Below are positions 15,929 through 53,687 of a DNA stretch of 53,687 nucleotides, in pieces. The translations under genes were made by a program, and so were the position numbers. The DNA is from Oscillospiraceae bacterium (GTDB taxonomy: Bacteria; Bacillota; Clostridia; Oscillospirales; Oscillospiraceae), in assembly GCA_015067935.1 (NCBI GenBank), contig SVLL01000005.1, positions 1 through 53,687 on the forward strand, written 5' to 3'. Position 1 is the first letter of the stretch. Every line of letters begins with the position of its first letter. The notes below the pieces were generated by a model. The model was not told where the DNA came from, searched no databases, and saw nothing but the letters and a program-made list of their open reading frames with translations.

Positions 15929-16695
15929 ACGCTCCCTCCTGCCAATGCCTGATAACCTTCTGCTCCACCGATTTCCTCCGGGGAAAACGCCACCATTGGA
16001 CTGATGCTTTTTCCGTTCAGCCGCACCCCATCCAAGCGCAGCAGCAGGAGCATCCCTCCCGGTTTTCCTACCGCTCTGTAGGGGATCAGCCGCGCACCGG
16101 GCAGCGGCTTCCGGGGCAGCATTTGTATGGGCTCCCGGATCAGATCCTGTGAGATGCCCAAGCGATGCCCCACCTCCATCCCCACGACCAGCACGCTGCC
16201 CCCGGTGATGGGATCGCGAAGGGTATTGCCTGTATCCAGTAAGGCGGTAAGCTTGACGCTTTGTCCTCTCCAGATAAGCTCTACCGGCTGAAATTTTGCC
16301 GTGCCGAGAGGTAAGCGGATACCCAAAGCGCACAGTAATACCAGCCCAACAGCCGCCAGCACAAGAGACAAAAAGCTGCCGTTTCCCATTCCCATTGCCA
16401 TTCCGCCCAGTGCCATACTCAGCAGCACAAACACCGTTCCCCGACGCACCGCACTCAGCTGCCATCCGTAAGCAATGATCGCCATGGCAATCAAAACAAG
16501 CAAACGCCAGAACACACCGCCCAAAAAGCGGAAACCCGGCAGCATACATACCCCTGCATAGCCGCCGCCAAGTAATGCTGCCAATGCGCATCGCCGCCAC
16601 CCGGCAGGATGGCCTGTCAGGCGGTTTGCCCCCATCAGAAGCAGCCCATCCACCAGGAAATTCAATAAAACCACAACATCCAGATAAACCGTCAC
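15925..16695 (-). CDS. spoIIGA: Sigma-E processing peptidase SpoIIGA
   Basis: Septal membrane aspartic protease that cleaves pro-sigma-E once SpoIIR signals from the forespore. GTG at 16695 gives 256 aa beginning [13 protein letters not shown], as in the family; AGGGGG lies 7 nt upstream. The N-terminal half has five hydrophobic segments. The C-terminal half carries the aspartic-protease motif [11 protein letters not shown] (DTGN at 154-157). It overlaps sigE by 4 nt, so translation is coupled. A candidate -10 TATACT lies at 16726-16731, but I could not assign convincing Spo0A boxes. Confidence 0.94.
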
Positions 16696-16833
16696 CCCAT
16701 CGCCCCCTCGTAAGATGATGGCTTCAGTATACGCCCATCTCCTGAAAAAGTCGGTCGCATTCTCCCACGGCATTGCCGACAGATACAACCCCTCCCCCAC
16801 AGATTCCGGGGCAAAGCAAGTCCATCAAGCAGA

Positions 16834-16864
16834 AAGCGGCAGCTGAATTTATCAGCTGCCGCTT
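16834..16864 (-). terminator. Terminator-like hairpin overlapping the DUF951 stop
   Basis: 13-bp perfect stem (16852-16864 with 16834-16846), 5-nt loop. The T tract is short (TTTCT), so efficiency is uncertain. The DUF951 TGA stop is inside the stem. Confidence 0.6.
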
Positions 16865-17061
16865 GAATCTGTCGAGGAGTTTTCACTTTTACTGATTGCC
16901 CGGATGTTTTTCTCTGCTTTGAACCGGGGCACCATAATTTCGTGACCGCAGCCGAGGCATTTCAGCCGTAAATCCGCACCGGTGCGCAGTACCTGCCACC
17001 GCTTTTCACCGCAGGGATGGGCCTTTTTCATTGTGAGAATGTCGTTCAGTTGAATATCCAT
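16852..17061 (-). CDS. DUF951-family small protein
   Basis: 69-aa conserved Firmicute protein of unknown function. The N-terminal half has the family pattern (DILTMKKAHPCGExxWxVxRxGADLRLKCLGCGHxIMVPR) with a conserved CxxC (LKCLGCGHE) that could bind metal. The C-terminal tail is Ser-rich and low complexity. The ATG is preceded by GAGGTG. It lies 9 nt after rarA on the same strand, so it is very likely co-transcribed. A role in nucleic-acid or translation processes is only a guess from CxxC. Confidence 0.9.
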   Translation of the reverse strand: MDIQLNDILTMKKAHPCGEKRWQVLRTGADLRLKCLGCGHEIMVPRFKAEKNIRAISKSENSSTDSSGS

Positions 17062-17070
17062 CGCCGCACC

Positions 17071-18333
17071 TCACTTGCCCTTGATGGCGTCCCAGTATTG
17101 CTTGGCCGCCTGTTCCAGCTTATTGGGACCGTACTCATAATAGGTCTTATCCGCAATGTCGTCTGGCAGATATTGCTGCTTGACCCAATGGTTGGGATAA
17201 TTATGGGGGTACAGATATCCCTGCTCCCTCTCCTGGGTATAGGTATCCGCGTGCATATTCTGCAGCTGGCGGGGGAAGCCCCGGCCCAAACCGTTGCGCA
17301 CATCCTCCAGAGCCGCATCAAAGGCGATATGGGCGGAGTTGGATTTGGGAGATGTCGCCATCAGCACCGCCGCATCCCCCAGAGGAATCCGAGCCTCCGG
17401 CATGCCCAGCATCAGAGCCGCATCCACGCAGGATTTGACAATGGGAATGATCTGGGGAAACGCAAGACCCACATCCTCACAGGCAATGACCATCAATCTG
17501 CGGCACGCCGCCTGCATCTGCCCCGCTTCCAACAAACGAGCCAGATAGTGGCAGGCCGCATCCGGATCGGAACCGCGGATGGATTTTTGCATTGCAGATA
17601 AAAGATCATAAAAGTTGTCCCCGTCCCGGTCAGCACGCAACGCACTTTTTTGGGAAACGGCTTTGGCATCCTCTAATGTCAGCACCAGCTCCCCGTTTTC
17701 CGGCTTACCGGCAGAAAAGAGAACCTCAACGGCGTTCATTGCCTTGCGCAGATCGCCGCCGCAGGAGCCAGCGATGTACTCCAGCGCACCCGTTTCGGGC
17801 TTTGCAGTCAGGGCTGTGCGTCCCTCCAGATAGGCAACCGCCCGTTTGACTGCCTTCAAGGCCGCCTCAGAATCGATCTGCTTAAACTCAAAGATAGTGG
17901 AGCGGCTGAGGATGGCATTGAAGACATAGAAATAGGGATTCTCCGTAGTGGAGGCAATTAGGGTAATCTTTCCGCTTTCGATATAATCCAGCAGGATCTG
18001 CTGCTGTTTTTTATTAAAGGACTGAATCTCATCCAGATACAGCAAAATGCCGTTGGGTGCCAAAAAAGTGTCCAGCTGGGCGGCAATTTCCTTGATGTCC
18101 GCCGTAGAAGCAGTGGTGGCGTTGAGCTGATACAGCGTGCGGTTGGTCTGCCGGGCAATAATCTTGGCGACGGTAGTCTTACCGGTACCGCTGGGCCCGT
18201 AGAATATCATATTGGGCACTTTGCCGCTGTCGACCAAACGGCGCAGGATGCCGTTTTCTCCCAAAATATGCTCCTGACCGAAAACCTCATCCAAGCTTTG
18301 AGGACGCAGGAGGTCTGCAAGTGGCTGATACAT
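17071..18333 (-). CDS. rarA: Replication-associated recombination protein A (RarA/MgsA AAA+ ATPase)
   Basis: Clamp-loader-like AAA+ ATPase acting at stalled replication forks. The start is ATG at 18333 (420 aa), preceded by AAAGGAG at 6 nt; the longer AT-rich frame to 18543 covers the promoter and is rejected. Walker A GPSGTGKT (46-53), Walker B ILLYLDEIQ (DE at 101-102), a sensor region STTENPYF and the C-terminal tetramerisation region ending in YLPDD...YYEYG..KLEQAAKQYW are all visible. It is followed by DUF951. Confidence 0.94.
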   Translation of the reverse strand: MYQPLADLLRPQSLDEVFGQEHILGENGILRRLVDSGKVPNMIFYGPSGTGKTTVAKIIARQTNRTLYQLNATTASTADIKEIAAQLDTFLAPNGILLYLDEIQSFNKKQQQILLDYIESGKITLIASTTENPYFYVFNAILSRSTIFEFKQIDSEAALKAVKRAVAYLEGRTALTAKPETGALEYIAGSCGGDLRKAMNAVEVLFSAGKPENGELVLTLEDAKAVSQKSALRADRDGDNFYDLLSAMQKSIRGSDPDAACHYLARLLEAGQMQAACRRLMVIACEDVGLAFPQIIPIVKSCVDAALMLGMPEARIPLGDAAVLMATSPKSNSAHIAFDAALEDVRNGLGRGFPRQLQNMHADTYTQEREQGYLYPHNYPNHWVKQQYLPDDIADKTYYEYGPNKLEQAAKQYWDAIKGK

Positions 18334-18374
18334 AGGCCGCTCCTTTCCCATTTTTCTCTTTCCTATTTTTCTAC

Positions 18375-18403
18375 AGTATAGCACACCTTTTCCGAAAATG
18401 CAC
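18375..18403 (-). promoter_or_regulatory. Candidate promoter of rarA
   Basis: Minus-strand GTGCAT (18398-18403), 17 bp, TATACT (18375-18380) with extended TG. It lies 42 bp upstream of the ATG. Confidence 0.5.
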
Positions 18404-18492
18404 GCATTATTTTTATAATTTTCGAATTTTTGTTCTATAATTGTTTTTGGGTGTTTTGCAGTCGATTTTTGTTTCTTTTCAAAAAAATTCTT

Positions 18493-18521
18493 CTGTACAT
18501 TTTCCAGTTTTGTGCTATAAT
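18493..18521 (+). promoter_or_regulatory. Candidate promoter of the sodium-pump subunit genes
   Basis: Strong extended -10 TGCTATAAT (TATAAT 18516-18521). The hexamer 17 bp upstream (18493-18498) is a poor -35. Confidence 0.5.
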
Positions 18522-18560
18522 GGATTTGATATTGTGAAAACATACTTGCGGAGGTAAACT

Positions 18561-19682
18561 ATGGAGGTATTGATTCAAAACTTTGCCAACATCACATGGC
18601 AAATGGTCGTGATGTGGGCAATCGGCGGTGTGCTGATCTATCTGGCCATCTCCAAAGAAATGGAGCCCACCCTGCTGTTGCCTATGGGCTTTGGTGCAAT
18701 TCTGATGAACCTGCCCGTTGCCGAGGCCGGCACCGGTGTTCAGGCTGTTATCGACGCTCTGTTTGCCATCGGTATCGATTATCATGAGCTGTTCCCCCTG
18801 CTGCTGTTCGTGGGTATTGGTGCAATGATCGACTTCGGTCCCCTGCTCAGCAATCCCAAGCTGATGATCTTCGGCGCGGCAGCCCAGTTTGGCATCTTCT
18901 TTACATTGTTTATGGCAACTCTGTTCGGCTTTGAGCTGAAGGATGCCGCTTCCATCGCTATCATCGGTGCCGCTGACGGTCCCACTGCTATTTATGTTGC
19001 CGGTCAGCTGGTTTCCAATTATATGGCTCCCATTATGGTGGCCGCCTACTCCTATATGGCACTTGTTCCCTTGGTGCAGCCGCCCATCATCAAGCTGTGC
19101 ACTACCAAGAAGGAACGCCGTATCAAGATGGCTTACGAGGGTGCGAATGTTTCCAAGCGCACCAAGATTCTCTTCCCCATCGTGGTCACTATGATCGTGG
19201 CTATGGTAGCACCTGACGCAGTTGCACTGATCGGTTTCCTGATGTTCGGCAACCTGATCCGCGAATGCGGCGTGCTGAACTCTCTGTCCGACACCGCACA
19301 AAATGTGCTGGCAAACCTGATCACTCTGTTTTTGGGTATCACCATCGCCGCCCGTATGCGCGCTGCCGAGTTCCTGCAGTGGGAAACCATCCTGATTATG
19401 GCTCTGGGTCTTGTGGCCTTTGTTGTGGATACCTTCGGTGGCATCATGATCGCCAAGATTATGAACATTTTCCTGCCCGAGGGCAAGAAAATCAATCCTA
19501 TGATCGGCGCAGCCGGTATCTCCGCATTCCCCATGTCCGCCCGTGTTGTGCACAAGATGGGTCTGGAAGAAGACAATCAGAACTTCCTGCTGATGCATTC
19601 CATCGGTGTTAATGTGTCCGGTCAGATCGCATCCGTCATTGCCGGCGGTTTGATTCTGGCATTGGTCAAGGGTTTACTGTAA
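18561..19682 (+). CDS. Sodium-ion-translocating decarboxylase beta subunit
   Basis: Membrane subunit (OadB/GcdB/MmdB family) that couples decarboxylation of carboxybiotin to sodium export. The 373-aa product is almost wholly hydrophobic, with the family's conserved PLLLFVGIGAMIDFGPLL and AAIGAADGPTAI-type segment (here IIGAADGPTAI) and the GINVSGQ-like C-terminal block HSIGVNVSGQIASVIAGG. The ATG follows GGAGG at 7 nt. It is followed 12 nt later by a small OadG-like gene. No biotin carrier or carboxyltransferase gene lies in the window, so which acid is decarboxylated cannot be said. Confidence 0.93.
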   Translation: MEVLIQNFANITWQMVVMWAIGGVLIYLAISKEMEPTLLLPMGFGAILMNLPVAEAGTGVQAVIDALFAIGIDYHELFPLLLFVGIGAMIDFGPLLSNPKLMIFGAAAQFGIFFTLFMATLFGFELKDAASIAIIGAADGPTAIYVAGQLVSNYMAPIMVAAYSYMALVPLVQPPIIKLCTTKKERRIKMAYEGANVSKRTKILFPIVVTMIVAMVAPDAVALIGFLMFGNLIRECGVLNSLSDTAQNVLANLITLFLGITIAARMRAAEFLQWETILIMALGLVAFVVDTFGGIMIAKIMNIFLPEGKKINPMIGAAGISAFPMSARVVHKMGLEEDNQNFLLMHSIGVNVSGQIASVIAGGLILALVKGLL

Positions 19683-48342: not shown

Positions 48343-48549
48343 TTAAGTGAAGATCAGAAAGGCTACGCCGCAAATCAGCAGCAACACCAGCAGACAAGGC
48401 AGTACAATAGTCAGGAAACCTGCGATAATCATCGCAACGGCATCCTTTATGCCTACCTTCTCTTCCTGCATCTGCTCGCGGAATGCCTCTTCATCCTTCT
48501 TGGAAGCCTTTTTCAGCTTCCTGAAAATGCCAAACTCTGCCTTACTCAT
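48343..48549 (-). CDS. Small single-pass membrane protein at the end of the Opp operon
   Basis: 68 aa: a highly charged N-terminal half (KLKKASKKDEEAFREQMQEEK, amphipathic helix-like) and one strong membrane segment (about residues 36-66). Its ATG shares one base with the OppF stop (TAATG), so it is translationally coupled to OppF, and the operon terminator follows directly. I do not recognise a family. Coupling suggests an accessory subunit of this ABC transporter. Confidence 0.78.
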   Translation of the reverse strand: MSKAEFGIFRKLKKASKKDEEAFREQMQEEKVGIKDAVAMIIAGFLTIVLPCLLVLLLICGVAFLIFT

Positions 48550-50174
48550 TATGCTTCCTGATTGGGCTGGTTGACCTTGAACAGATAGTTGCCGTTCTCA
48601 TCCAGCTTTGCTTCCGGGAAATGGCAGGTTACGAAGTGACCGGGCGCAACCTCCGTAGTGGGAGGCGGCACGACCTTACACTTGTCGCAAGCCATATAGC
48701 ACCGGGTGTGGAACTTACAGCCCTCGGGCGGACGGATGGGGCTGGGGATGTTACCCTCCAGCAGGATACGCTCCTTCTTCAGGGCGTTCACATCCGTTGT
48801 GGGGATGGAAGACATCAGTGCAACCGTGTAGGGATGACGGGGATCTGCAAAAATCTCTTCCGCAGTACCCAGCTCCACCATATTGCCCAGATACATAACG
48901 CCGATACGGTCGGAAATGTAGCGGACAACGGACAGGTCGTGGGAAATGAACAGATAGGTCAGGTTTTCCTTTTCCTTCAGCTCTTCCAGCAGATTGATGA
49001 TCTGAGACTGAATGGACACATCCAATGCGGAAACACATTCGTCACAGACGATGAACTTGGGCTTCACAGCCAGCGCACGGGCAATGCAGATACGCTGACG
49101 CTGACCACCGGAGAACTGGTGGGGATAACGGTGCAGCATATAGTCCTGCAGGCCGCACTGCTCCATCACCTTGATGATATAGTCCTTCATTTGTCCATCG
49201 CCGGCCTTGAAGAACTTATGGGTGGTCAGGCCCTCGCCAATGATCTGACCCACGGTCATACGGGGGTTCAGAGAGGAGTAGGGATCTTGGAAGATGATCT
49301 GAATATCCTTACGCAGTGTGCGCATTTCGGAATACTTCAGGCGGCTCAGGTCGATGCCGTCATCCAGCATTGCTTCATACTCCTGGAACTTGGCATTGCC
49401 GGCATACTTTGCCTTCGCTGCTCTAACCTGATTGTCAGCTTCCTTCAGCTGGGCATTGAGCTTGTCCAACTCAGGCTGCAGCTTTTCCTTCTTTGCACGG
49501 AAGGACTCGGCCTTCTTCAGAGCCTTTTCTGCCTTAGCAGCCGCGTTCTTAACGGTTTCGTCCGCTTCCAGCTCCTTTGCCAGAGCCTCATAGAAAGCAA
49601 CTTCGCCATTCATATCGCGGATCTTTTCGTTGATCTTACTGATCTTGATGCTGATCTCAAACTTCTTCAGCAGAAGACCTGCTCCCTCGCGAGGATCATC
49701 CAGTGCGGCAAAACCGCCCAAAATCTTGACAACACTCTGGAAAGCTGTTTCCGCTTCTGCGGCAGTCAGATTCTTTCTCTGATGCTGGAAGAAGGTTGCA
49801 CTCTCCCCTGCTGCATCACATTCTGCAGCAGCGGCGGCGGCTTTCGCCTGCATCTTCTTATAGTTGGCAATCAGCTTGGTTGCGTTGCGCATAGTGGCAG
49901 CAGCATAGGAGGGCACGAAATCCTCCAAGGTGCGGCCATAGTACATAGTACTGCCTGCAGTCTGATCGTACAGCTGCAGAATGGTACGACCCAGCGTGGA
50001 CTTGCCGCAGCCGGATTCACCAACCAGACCAAAGGTCTCGCCATTCTGGATGTCGATGGTGATTTCCTCATTTGCCCGGACATACAGCTGCTCCTTCTGG
50101 AAGATGCTGGACTTGGCGACAGGGAAATATTTCTTAAGATTCGTGATCGACAAGAGCGTGTTTGTGTTCTTCAC
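48549..50174 (-). CDS. oppF: Oligopeptide ABC transporter ATPase OppF with large coiled-coil insertion
   Basis: 541 aa against about 310-340 for ordinary OppF. Walker [10 protein letters not shown] (52-60), Q-loop [12 protein letters not shown] (293-304), signature FSGGQRQR, Walker [13 protein letters not shown] (Cys replaces the usual Pro) and the C-terminal oligopeptide-transporter block ([17 protein letters not shown], Cys-rich) are intact. Residues about 82-275 are an extra Ala/Lys/Glu-rich helical segment with heptad-like periodicity, placed between Walker A and the Q-loop, in the surface loop after YYG. The start is GTG at 50174, AAAAGGAGG 9 nt upstream, overlapping oppD by 41 nt. Confidence 0.92.
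49350..49931 (-). other. Segment encoding the coiled-coil insertion in OppF
   Basis: Codes for residues about 82-275 of OppF: alanine/lysine/glutamate-rich, almost no Pro after residue 161 apart from Pro234, with predicted long helices ([37 protein letters not shown]). Confidence 0.85.
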
Positions 50175-51153
50175 TGCAGCGTACCTCCTTTTCAGGATAA
50201 TGGCACCGAATCTTCTGACCGGGTGTTACCTCACGCAGTGTGGGCTCCTGCTCGAGACACTGCTGGGTTGCATACTTACAACGAGGAGCAAACTTGCAGC
50301 CCTTTGGCAGGGCCAGAGGATGGGGAACCACACCGGGAATGGGTTCGAGCTTATGGGTAATATTATCGATGCGGGGAATGGAGTGCATCAGGCCCTCCGT
50401 ATAGGGATGGCTGGTGGGGCAATCCGTAAAGATCATCTTTGCGGAGGTCTGCTCAACCACCTGACCGCAGTACATAACGACCACATCATCAGCCATCTCA
50501 TTGATAACGCCCAAATCGTGGGTGATGAAAATGATGGCGGTGCCGTTTTCTCTCTGCAGATCATTCATCAGGCGCAGGATCTGTGCCTGAATGGTCACAT
50601 CCAAAGCGGTGGTGGGCTCGTCCGCGATCAGGATCTTGGGCTTACAGGCCAGTGCCATTGCGATCATAACGCGCTGGCGCATACCGCCGGAAAGCTGGTG
50701 AGGATACTGCCGCAGAACTGCCTCAGGGTTGGGGATCTGCACGGCGTGGAGCATTTCCAGAGCCTTCTGCTCTGCCTGCTTCTTGGACATATTCTGGTGA
50801 ATCATAAACGGCTCAGACAGCTGCTTTTTCACCGTGAACACGGGGTTCAGGCTGGTCATAGGCTCCTGGAAAATGACAGAAATCTTGTTGCCGCGGATCT
50901 CATACATTTCCTGCTGGCTCAGCTTGGTCAGGTCCTTGCCCTCGAAGATCACTTCGCCCTCGGCAATATAACCGTTGCCATCCAGCAGCTGCAGGATGCT
51001 CATCGCGGAAACGGACTTACCGGAACCGGACTCACCAACGATACCGATGGTCTTGCCGGGCTCCAGTGCATAGGAAACATCGTTAACTGCCTTAACGATA
51101 CCCTTTCTGGTTTTGAAATAGGTATGAAGGTTCTTTACTTCTAACAAAGCCAT
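50134..51153 (-). CDS. oppD: Oligopeptide ABC transporter ATPase OppD
   Basis: 339-aa nucleotide-binding subunit of normal length. Walker A GESGSGKS (40-47), Q-loop [12 protein letters not shown], signature LSGGMRQR, Walker [13 protein letters not shown] and H-loop ITHDLGV are intact. The C-terminal oligo_HPY region ([21 protein letters not shown]) carries Cys residues typical of Fe-S-binding Opp/Dpp ATPases. It pairs with OppF to power peptide import. It lies 18 nt after oppC and overlaps oppF by 41 nt. Confidence 0.96.
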
Positions 51154-51171: not shown

Positions 51172-53139
51172 TTATCTTTCCTGGCTGCTCTTGGGATCGA
51201 GAACATCCCGCAGAGCGTCGCCGATGATGTTGATGCTGATGGTGGCAATTGCCAGGAAGATGGCGGGGAACACCCACTGCCACCAGTAGTTCTGAATGAC
51301 GATGGAGTTGTTTGCGCCATAGAGCATATTGCCCCAAGTGGGCTGAGGCTGCTGAACACCGAAGCCCAGATAAGACAGAGAAGATTCGGTCAGCATACAG
51401 CCGGCAAAGTCCAGCGTCAGGTTCACCAAGATGATGGATGCCACATTGGGCAGGATGTGCTTAAAGGCGATCCGGCTCTCCTTGATGCCCATGGACTGGG
51501 CAGCAATGACAAATTCCTTCTCACGCTCGGCCAGTACCTGTGCACGGATCATTCTTGCCAGACCTGTCCAGCTCAAAAGACCAAGGATACACATGATAAT
51601 GAATATTCGCGTGGTCTCGTCAATGGGCTGCGTTCTGATAACATACGACAGCATCATTGCAAAGGGCAGGAACGGAATGGAAGAACAAATCTCAGTGATA
51701 CGCATCAGCAGCATATCCACCCAGCCACCGAAGTAGCCGGAAATACAGCCGATAATGATGGCGATGATGGTGGAAACAATAACCGCCACAGCACCAATGG
51801 TCATAGTCATCTTACCGCCGTGAATAATACGGGTCAACACATCACGGCCGCGGTTGTCGGTGCCGAACAGATAACCCTTAAAGCCAGACTTTTCGGTAAC
51901 TTCGTCGTTTTCATTCACCAGATAGGTCTGCTTGGAGCCGGTGAAAATCCGGCTTGCCTTAGCACCGTCAATGTCGGTCTGACCGCCGTCATTATGGCCC
52001 CATGCACGCACGGTGCCATCCTCAGTCATGGCCACAAAGTGACGGGTACCGGAAACAACAGAGACATACTTCTCCCCTGCTGCAAGAGCAGGTGCATCAT
52101 TTTCACCGTAACGGGCTGCGCCGAAGGTGACGATGCTGCCGTCTTCCATAACGATTGCATAGCAGTTATCGGTAGCAGCGATATCAACAGCCTTGTGCTT
52201 CATCAGGTAAGACCGCAGATCGGTGATCTTGCCCTCGGTGGTGGAATAAGCGGTGGTACCCATAAAGCTCAGGGAGTTACCGCCGGTAACGGTGCCGTCC
52301 TTCAGCAGAACGATTGCATAGTAGTTGGAGAAAGCAATTTTCTCAACATTGGTGTTCATTTTACCGTTGGTGGTCAGTTCTTCCAAGCTGAGCATTGCGT
52401 TCTTGTTGCCCCAAACATAGAGGGTGCCGTCCTTCATAACGATAGCAGAGCACTGATAGCCGCAGACGAGCTGCTGAACCTCAGTGTAATCCACAACGCC
52501 GGTGAGCATTCTCTTGGGCATTTCAATATAGAACTGCTTGTCTGTCTCCGCCAGCGCACCGTACTGACCGTTGGTCTTATTACCCCAGCCAACCACCTTA
52601 CCACCGGTGGTGATGGCAATGATGTGGTCAGAACCTGCAGCAGCAAAAGCCACATTACCGTCCACGATCTCTTCCGGGAACTTGGACAGATCGATGTTGG
52701 TCAGGTTGTTCTCGGTCATACCCCAGATATACAGCTTCTTGTCGTTGCTGACACCAACAGAGAAGTTGGCAAAGCCGTTCACATCCTTAACATTACCGGC
52801 AAGCTCGTCGGGGATATTCAGGAAGGTGTAGTTAGGGGCGATATTGGCCTGCAGGGCATCGGTGTAGGTCAGGTCCATAGGCATGAACTCAGGTCCGATG
52901 AATACCAACAGGAACATTGCAATGAGAACGATCAGCGCAGTAACAGCCAGCTTACGGCGAAAGAACGCCTTAACGGCCATCATACTGGGGCTTTCGATCT
53001 TTTCAACAAAGAGCTTTTCGTCTTCGGTCAACTCCTTGCTGGCACCCAGGAACATTCTCTTGGTCCAACGCCACAGCGTTGCACCGATGCGCACGAATAC
53101 ATTCTTTTTGGCAGTATTCTTTTCTTGATTCTTTGACAT
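51172..53139 (-). CDS. oppC: Oligopeptide ABC transporter permease OppC with inserted RCC1-like seven-repeat propeller
   Basis: 655 aa against about 300 for ordinary OppC. Order: cytoplasmic N-terminus, TM1 (about 64-82), a Phe/Pro stretch, then about residues 105-418 holding seven RCC1-like repeats (near 124-140, 164-186, 223-244, 266-288, 318-340, 359-381, 395-418). Each has the pattern hydrophobic-xGxxxxxAhxxDGxhxxWG. The standard OppC sequence resumes at YLFGTDNRGRDVLTR (423-437), followed by five membrane segments and the EAA loop (IIAAQSMGIKESRIAFKHILPN type). Topology puts the insertion outside the cell beside the solute-binding-protein docking face. The frame is continuous. The ATG follows AAGGAGG. 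Confidence 0.95.
   Translation of the reverse strand: MSKNQEKNTAKKNVFVRIGATLWRWTKRMFLGASKELTEDEKLFVEKIESPSMMAVKAFFRRKLAVTALIVLIAMFLLVFIGPEFMPMDLTYTDALQANIAPNYTFLNIPDELAGNVKDVNGFANFSVGVSNDKKLYIWGMTENNLTNIDLSKFPEEIVDGNVAFAAAGSDHIIAITTGGKVVGWGNKTNGQYGALAETDKQFYIEMPKRMLTGVVDYTEVQQLVCGYQCSAIVMKDGTLYVWGNKNAMLSLEELTTNGKMNTNVEKIAFSNYYAIVLLKDGTVTGGNSLSFMGTTAYSTTEGKITDLRSYLMKHKAVDIAATDNCYAIVMEDGSIVTFGAARYGENDAPALAAGEKYVSVVSGTRHFVAMTEDGTVRAWGHNDGGQTDIDGAKASRIFTGSKQTYLVNENDEVTEKSGFKGYLFGTDNRGRDVLTRIIHGGKMTMTIGAVAVIVSTIIAIIIGCISGYFGGWVDMLLMRITEICSSIPFLPFAMMLSYVIRTQPIDETTRIFIIMCILGLLSWTGLARMIRAQVLAEREKEFVIAAQSMGIKESRIAFKHILPNVASIILVNLTLDFAGCMLTESSLSYLGFGVQQPQPTWGNMLYGANNSIVIQNYWWQWVFPAIFLAIATISINIIGDALRDVLDPKSSQER
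51880..52842 (-). other. Segment encoding the RCC1-like propeller insertion in OppC
   Basis: Codes for residues 100-420 of OppC. Seven repeats with DG turn and terminal W/F-G, as in seven-bladed RCC1-fold propellers. No frame change, stop or composition break marks the junctions, so it behaves as a domesticated domain. Confidence 0.85.
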
Positions 53140-53153
53140 AAAATACCGCCTCC

Positions 53154-53687
53154 TTACTTATTGACACGGACACGAGGATCCACCAGACCGTAGGCAAGGT
53201 CGATCAGCAGGTTTCCGAACAATGCGATGGTAATATAGAACATCTGCAGAGCCAGCACAACTTCGTTATCGTTGCCGTTCAGGGCATCGTAATAGGTCTT
53301 ACCGATACCGTTCAGAGCAAAGATGTTCTCGATCATCATGGAGCCACCGAAGATACCCAAAAACCAGCCGATGATCAGGGTGGTGATGGGCAGCAGGGCG
53401 TTGCGCCATGCGTGGGAGTAGATGACAACCTTCTCACGCAGACCCTTTGCCCGGGCAGTACGGATGCAGTCCATATTCAGAGCTTCGATCATAGAAGCGC
53501 GGACAAAACGGGTCATACCGCCAAGAGAAGTAAAGGTCATAACGATCAAGGGCAGAGCCATGTGATACATGCGGTCCCAGAACTTGTCCCAATCGGACCA
53601 TTCCAGGCTGCCTGCAGTCTGCATACCGGATACGGGGAACCAACCCAGAATAATGGCAAACAGCCAGATAAAGACGATTGCCAGAAT
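53154..53687 (-). CDS. oppB: Oligopeptide ABC transporter permease OppB, C-terminal part (cut by window edge)
   Basis: 178 codons run to the stop at 53154; the N-terminus lies beyond the right edge. The segment LAIVFIWLFAIILGWFPVSGM, the EAA loop (DCIRTARAKGLREKVVIYSHAWRNAL) and the ENIFALNGIGKTYYDAL and LIDLAYGLVDPRVR ends are typical of OppB/DppB. It is followed after 14 nt by oppC. The visible part is of ordinary length with no insertion. A solute-binding protein OppA is expected upstream, outside the window. Confidence 0.95.
   Translation of the reverse strand: MLAIVFIWLFAIILGWFPVSGMQTAGSLEWSDWDKFWDRMYHMALPLIVMTFTSLGGMTRFVRASMIEALNMDCIRTARAKGLREKVVIYSHAWRNALLPITTLIIGWFLGIFGGSMMIENIFALNGIGKTYYDALNGNDNEVVLALQMFYITIALFGNLLIDLAYGLVDPRVRVNK

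Follow-up and report, generated by a model that had tools for sequence, protein, structure and literature searches.

Why should the permease of a peptide importer carry a whole beta-propeller in one of its outer loops? The question is raised by a gene near the end of a 53,687-nucleotide stretch of Oscillospiraceae DNA (hereafter the window), which is one entire contig, C5. The initial annotation, made from the letters of the sequence, had described a 655-residue OppC in which about 320 residues separate the first transmembrane helix (TM1) from the GTDxxGRD motif and form an RCC1-like propeller. The open reading frame (ORF) and its Pfam matches bear this out and place the gene, for which no strand had been given, on the minus strand with an ATG start; the plus-strand reading of 51172-53139 is an unrelated antisense frame. 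The gene and its parts are as follows.

51172..53139, minus strand: oppC, a permease with a propeller insert, 655 aa (ORF, Pfam, AlphaFold2 and PDB matches)
52834..52992, minus strand: OppC_N with TM1, residues 50-102 (PF12911, 1.4e-8; helix 63-85 in the model)
51877..52833, minus strand: RCC1/BLIP-II-like seven-bladed propeller, residues about 103-421, in the TM1-TM2 loop
51841..51864, minus strand: GTDNRGRD motif, residues 426-433, directly following the final propeller strand (sequence and model)
51190..51762, minus strand: BPD_transp_1 membrane domain, residues 460-650

On either side of the ~320 residues that lie between TM1 and GTDNRGRD, the chain matches the OppC_N (1.4e-8, 34.9 bits against a cut-off of 23.9) and BPD_transp_1 (2e-33, 116.1 bits against 26.4) families. 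The best of 28 NCBIfam models, Opp4C (NF045476), scores 307.8 bits and misses its cut-off of 350, so the protein is an OppC by its domains but falls in no curated equivalog; from family membership alone we infer a peptide cargo. A search of residues 100-420 with RCC1 profiles had been proposed, and RCC1_2 repeats (PF13540) are indeed found at 1.7e-28 and 98 bits, above the cut-off of 22, with three stretches passing singly. The other RCC1 repeat model, PF00415, reaches 14 bits, below its cut-off of 21.7, and the RCC1-like domain WD40_RLD (PF25390) reaches 114.7 bits (8e-33), under its curated cut-off of 150, which one relative (L094) exceeds with 159.6 bits. This oppC is the sole PF13540 match in its own genome, and PF00415 has no match in that genome or in the 14 controls.

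The AlphaFold2 model of the full protein folds the insert into seven blades, in keeping with the seven RCC1-type repeats first read from the sequence, with a predicted local distance difference test score (pLDDT) of about 91. The strand groups span residues 117-140, 163-186, 221-245, 265-305, 317-340 and 358-381, with a shorter seventh at 391-419. Compared with the PDB, this predicted structure overlays E. coli OppC with its membrane part and BLIP-II (1jtd), the nearest small bacterial match, with its insert, the identity to BLIP-II being about 21%. The known topology of the family, together with the likeness to E. coli OppC, would place the propeller outside the cell. Only six residues lead from the last propeller strand (414-419) to GTD (426), and the linkers score well (pLDDT per 10-residue block of 80 at 91-100, 90-94 at 101-120 and 89-94 at 411-430); because they are short and well predicted, the propeller is probably held close to the outer face of OppC. 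Ordinary OppC proteins had been put at about 300 aa, and the OppC/DppC chains of E. coli OppBCDF (8z21), E. coli DppABCDF (8z1y) and M. tuberculosis OppABCD (8j5q-t) agree: they have 287-302 aa, a short TM1-TM2 loop and no propeller, whereas the loop here has ~320 aa. The solved structures listed for BLIP-II, UVR8 and RCC1, for their part, are not inserted in a transporter permease.

Misassembly, the artefact that the initial annotation had singled out, can be rejected. The insert is present in related genomes, with RCC1_2, WD40_RLD and BPD_transp_1 recognized in 70/70 aligned relatives (window included) and OppC_N in 68/70, and the propeller-bearing OppCs group together in a tree. A protein search returned 2079 matches at E ≤ 0.001 among 7997 candidates scored, and among the matches listed (120) all have 603-666 aa and combine RCC1-type, OppC_N and BPD_transp_1 domains. 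The gene neighbourhoods described below (loci L001-L080) are the best 80 of 382 confirmed relatives, themselves among 396 pattern-matched genome stretches, and are 40-91% identical to the window protein over most of its length. Judged by their titles, these come from metagenome-assembled or uncultured Clostridia, many of them Oscillospiraceae, some Lachnospiraceae or Christensenellaceae and one 'Bacilli'; one name, that of L040, falls in Myxococcota in the taxonomy. The propeller-bearing importer is found in uncultured gut bacteria.

Its spread was followed by searching with the insert alone in genome samples of the order, class and phylum, which share genomes. Some RCC1-type match at E ≤ 1e-3 occurs in 101/394 genomes of the order; 27/394, the window's genome included, match at E ≤ 1e-15. 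These strong matches lie in frames of 605-667 aa in 25/27 cases and in shorter frames in two, and 13/27 are confirmed as OppC, the window among them. At E ≤ 1e-14 the insert is matched in 18/391 genomes of the class, three times in frames of 819-832 aa; in G661, the only one of these genomes tested, the sole OppC-like match is a separate gene of ~300 aa, and therefore not every match to the insert is an OppC. Matches occur in 4/398 genomes of the phylum. Within the window's own genus the insert is present in G111 and G319, with no match in G268 and G355, and its distribution is patchy in Clostridia even within a genus. The searches also drew attention to G282, where RCC1-type matches on contig C3 (~89217-122672) fall in one open frame, reported at 40694 codons; a 19.9-kb part of it (L139) is stop-free in one frame for 6633 codons, with one antisense frame open too.

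Does the propeller take the place of the binding protein? The window's contig ends inside oppB, and for this reason no oppA can be read for its own operon, but relatives are informative. An oppA lies upstream of oppB in 73/73 loci with enough sequence, partial only in two (L003 and L014); in the remaining 7/80 the contig ends ≤1.5 kb from oppC. Further genome regions chosen among the propeller hits show the order oppA-oppB-oppC-oppD-oppF in 17/17, with one oppA cut by a contig end. The suggestion that the propeller might replace or assist OppA therefore survives in its second half: replacement is rejected, and because oppA is present wherever it can be seen, the propeller should work with OppA and not instead of it. 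Outside the operon no gene is conserved across loci, the commonest flanking family occurring in only 21/80, and an Rfam scan of 8 of the 80 loci detected no RNA element at the operon. A Peptidase_M3 gene precedes oppA in L050 (L050:2845-4548), and ORFs of the same family are present in 5/80 loci, the L050 member being the one scanned.

The OppA proteins of these operons are themselves unusual. Searching with a profile of some 80 residues, taken from L001 OppA 78-165, reveals a single copy in each of 71 classifiable OppAs, near the N-terminus in 47/71, at the C-terminus in 24/71 and twice in none (E < 1e-3); among the 17 further regions, 6 have the segment at the N-terminus and 11, including a cut one, at the C-terminus. 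A second profile, made only from 16 of the C-terminal copies, matches residues 503-555 of 562 of the solved OppA 9p48 (1.7e-13), which makes the C-terminus the usual place of the segment. The model of the L001 OppA (pLDDT 92.1, predicted template modelling score 0.88) aligns from about residue 143-168 to 724 with canonical binding proteins from their first residues on, such as residues 1-446 of 517 of 1ola and 1-442 of 507 of 1dpe, leaving the last stretch of these proteins unmatched, as a circular permutation predicts. By profile and by model, then, most OppAs seen in propeller operons are natural circular permutants of a family-5 binding protein, in which the usual C-terminal segment stands between the lipobox and the usual N-terminus (L001:3246-5432 and 46 more loci). 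L001, the closest full-operon relative of the window (OppC 91% identical), has the permuted form. We rejected the idea that the segment is a mobile extra module partnering the propeller, since it is the usual C-terminal end of family-5 binding proteins. The fewest permutation changes on the free quick tree are 2; a tree with one permuted clade, in a test that counted in the window's row, has the higher likelihood (p of the approximately unbiased test 0.672), so that several independent permutations are not needed and a single origin is compatible with the tree.

There is a precedent in Tp0684/MglB-2, a circularly permuted binding protein for which a 'Cluster Bc' has been proposed and in which, its authors suggest, the permuted topology might have been favoured by anchoring (PMC4990184). 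Both are natural circular permutations of an ABC binding protein. They differ in kind, the protein here being a family-5 peptide binder with its C-terminal segment at the N-terminus, and Tp0684 a glucose-binding cluster B protein with N-terminal strands near the C-terminus (PMC4990184).

How did the propeller enter the permease? In a tree of the membrane core without the insert (quick method; row L102, which has a stop codon, left out), one branch splits 88 propeller-bearing from 23 propeller-free rows with a support of 99 in the Shimodaira-Hasegawa-like approximate likelihood ratio test. The propeller-bearing rows of the sample form a single clade, within which the propeller was apparently gained once; the propeller-free rows are few and several are long-branched, so a closer propeller-free sister may exist. 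Candidates for loss, sought among the matches listed (120 of 7990), are P0155, P0172 and P0205, in which a propeller-type C-terminal half is joined to another N-terminal half with no propeller. P0155 and P0172 are probably assembly chimeras, because over 185 residues their propeller-type half matches the L006 propeller protein with 100% identity; P0205 (91% to L023) could be a real loss or exchange. Those of the remaining short rows without RCC1 annotation that were printed mostly look like fragments or late starts. Four propeller-free OppCs of 516-536 aa (L095, L096, L105 and L106, from operons L135-L138) belong to Opp operons of the same bacterial family as the window and carry other inserts of ~200 residues in the same TM1-TM2 loop. 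These have no RCC1 match, and those of L095 and L105 have no further Pfam match; their presence suggests that this loop of OppC accepts domains repeatedly. In two of the four operons OppD has 715-720 aa.

What, then, might the propeller do? The binding protein of E. coli DppABCDF forms a cap over DppB and DppC, and a scoop motif of DppB enters its cleft (PMC12136057); in the maltose importer the P2 domain of MalF (residues 91-271) contacts the binding protein MalE (PMC3150292). BLIP-II, the fold's nearest match, is a secreted beta-lactamase binder (PMC9218822). Given that short linkers fix the propeller to the outer face of OppC, it should sit at or beside the docking site of OppA. We favour, with a probability of about one half, a reading by analogy in which the propeller serves, in the manner of MalF-P2, as a folded platform on the outside where the lipoprotein OppA is docked or positioned. 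The system is a type I oligopeptide importer, OppABCDF, and in this clade the extracytoplasmic TM1-TM2 loop of its OppC apparently received, a single time, a seven-bladed propeller of the RCC1/BLIP-II type; as a rigid platform, the propeller would keep OppA close to the mouth of the channel or set the orientation of the two OppA lobes, and the peptide would then be handed from OppA to OppB/OppC, much as MalF-P2 meets MalE. This reading draws on topology, the short ordered linkers, the constant company of OppA and a weakly correlated divergence; the contact itself and its effect on transport we infer from these.

The divergence data point in the same direction, with qualifications. With the other subunits held constant, the distances of propeller and OppA show a rank partial correlation of 0.58 over 68 loci, which 0/500 label permutations reach, while the propeller and the membrane domain of its own chain give 0.07; for comparison, the same measure gives 0.81 for permease domain and OppB and 0.85 for OppD and OppF. 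As a sign of a link between propeller and OppA this is suggestive only, and several results weigh against a docking platform. The correlation is only 0.44 in the 46 loci with permuted OppA and 0.16 in the 22 canonical loci, where 27/500 permutations reach it and propeller and OppB correlate more highly (0.40). The measure also misses contacts expected in any such importer (OppA/OppB 0.13 and OppA/OppC membrane domain 0.06 in the full set), and shared fast evolution of the outer parts or saturated distances could produce the 0.58. Conservation is much lower in the propeller than in the membrane core, with mean column entropies of 1.97 and 0.78 bits, and the inter-blade loops vary most of all (2.40 bits); with loops classed from DSSP and no mapping on coordinates, no conserved surface patch was found beyond the RCC1 motif positions. 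Ordinary Opp systems, moreover, function without a propeller.

The variable loops would better suit the main rival, that the propeller is a second receptor, which would capture peptides, or fragments of the cell wall that bear them, outside the cell and enrich or sort them before they reach OppA; these loops are long and vary more than any other part of the domain, as a diversifying binding surface should. Yet RCC1-type propellers of known structure mostly bind proteins, a dedicated binding protein is present wherever it can be seen, and no conserved pocket was identified in the propeller. Large outer domains of ABC permeases can bind substrate, as the extracellular domain of SaNsrP does alone with bacitracin (PMC12484072). 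On balance we consider such peptide pre-binding unlikely. Somewhat further down the scale, we think it rather improbable that the propeller plays no part in OppA docking and instead tethers the transporter to some different component of the surface or cell wall, be it an extracellular peptidase, a cell-wall protein or a glycan. Propellers often serve as interaction scaffolds, an ORF family with a Peptidase_M3 member (L050) recurs in 5/80 loci, and inserts lacking RCC1 repeats occupy the same loop of other OppCs; the lack of any conserved gene outside the operon speaks against anchoring, though a partner could be encoded elsewhere.

Two further explanations fare worse. The likeness to the inhibitor BLIP-II invites the thought of a shield or decoy against phages, bacteriocins or hydrolases that enter via Opp, but identity to BLIP-II is about 21%, and propeller divergence tracks OppA in the full set; we regard this as very unlikely. 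Hardly any weight falls on an insertion near-neutral in function and kept by descent: the poorly conserved surface loops would fit it, but the RCC1 repeats of this ~300-aa insert are still recognized in 70/70 aligned relatives down to 41% identity, and of the three propeller-free look-alikes P0155 and P0172 are the probable chimeras, with P0205 less clear.

The remaining opp genes of the window, all on the minus strand, are listed here.

53154..53687, minus strand: oppB, truncated at the end of the contig, 177 codons present (PF00528, 1.7e-28)
50134..51153, minus strand: oppD, 339 aa (PF00005, PF08352 oligo_HPY)
48549..50174, minus strand: oppF, 541 aa, overlapping oppD by 41 bases (PF00005 in two stretches, PF08352)
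49320..49952, minus strand: extra Ala/Lys/Glu-rich segment of OppF, residues about 75-285, approximate (Walker A to Q-loop distance)

The window OppF has about 200 additional Ala/Lys/Glu-rich residues between Walker A and Q-loop, which are 242 residues apart against 54 in OppD. Downstream OppF frames of relatives, found in 77/80 loci, measure 326-598 aa and at least 500 aa in 55/77, though some frames or starts, as in L004, may be misassigned. Distances of OppD/OppF and the permease subunits show rank correlations of 0.19-0.42 over 68 loci but 0.64-0.87 in the 22 canonical-OppA loci; some members of the clade may have exchanged their ATPase genes. The window's genome (G000) has two family-5 binding proteins, one on C36 and one on C12; the latter belongs to a second Opp set (about 16262-19643; L081, L084) and adjoins an ordinary OppC of 326 aa.

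How new is this arrangement? MalF belongs to another permease family, and its P2 lies in another loop and has another fold; BceAB-type transporters differ from Opp in superfamily and fold and, to our knowledge, work without a binding protein. The propeller resembles MalF-P2 in being a folded extracytoplasmic domain, inserted in a single permease subunit and next to a binding protein; the contact of P2 with MalE is known, whereas that of the propeller with OppA is putative, and P2 has about 180 residues (91-271) against ~320 here (PMC3150292). Like the BceAB-type SaNsrP, OppC is an ABC permease of Gram-positive bacteria with a large outer domain, but the SaNsrP domain binds the antibiotic itself (PMC12484072). 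Among the papers listed by searches of the open-licence PMC literature, judged in part by title, none described an RCC1 or beta-propeller insert in OppC or in a transporter permease, in line with the initial annotation, which knew of no described example. Databases hold the OppC-RCC1 combination unremarked, as it is visible in precomputed Pfam annotation, and the circular permutation of OppA in propeller operons is new here. Tentatively, propeller and permutation may together form a novel importer architecture, in which the permease propeller docks and gates its own OppA, setting its landing or pre-binding peptide and passing it on, and the permutation re-sites the lipid anchor to fit; we consider this possible but less likely than not.

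In type I importers the permease commonly works with the binding protein through a small scoop loop (PMC12136057). Here an entire propeller, about the size of BLIP-II, stands at the expected docking site of the binding protein and has been retained in a varied set of uncultured Clostridia. The arrangement lets one ask, on a natural system, how the outer face of a permease bears on the docking of the binding protein, on selectivity and on gating, and the occurrence of canonical and permuted OppA beside the same type of permease provides a ready-made comparison.
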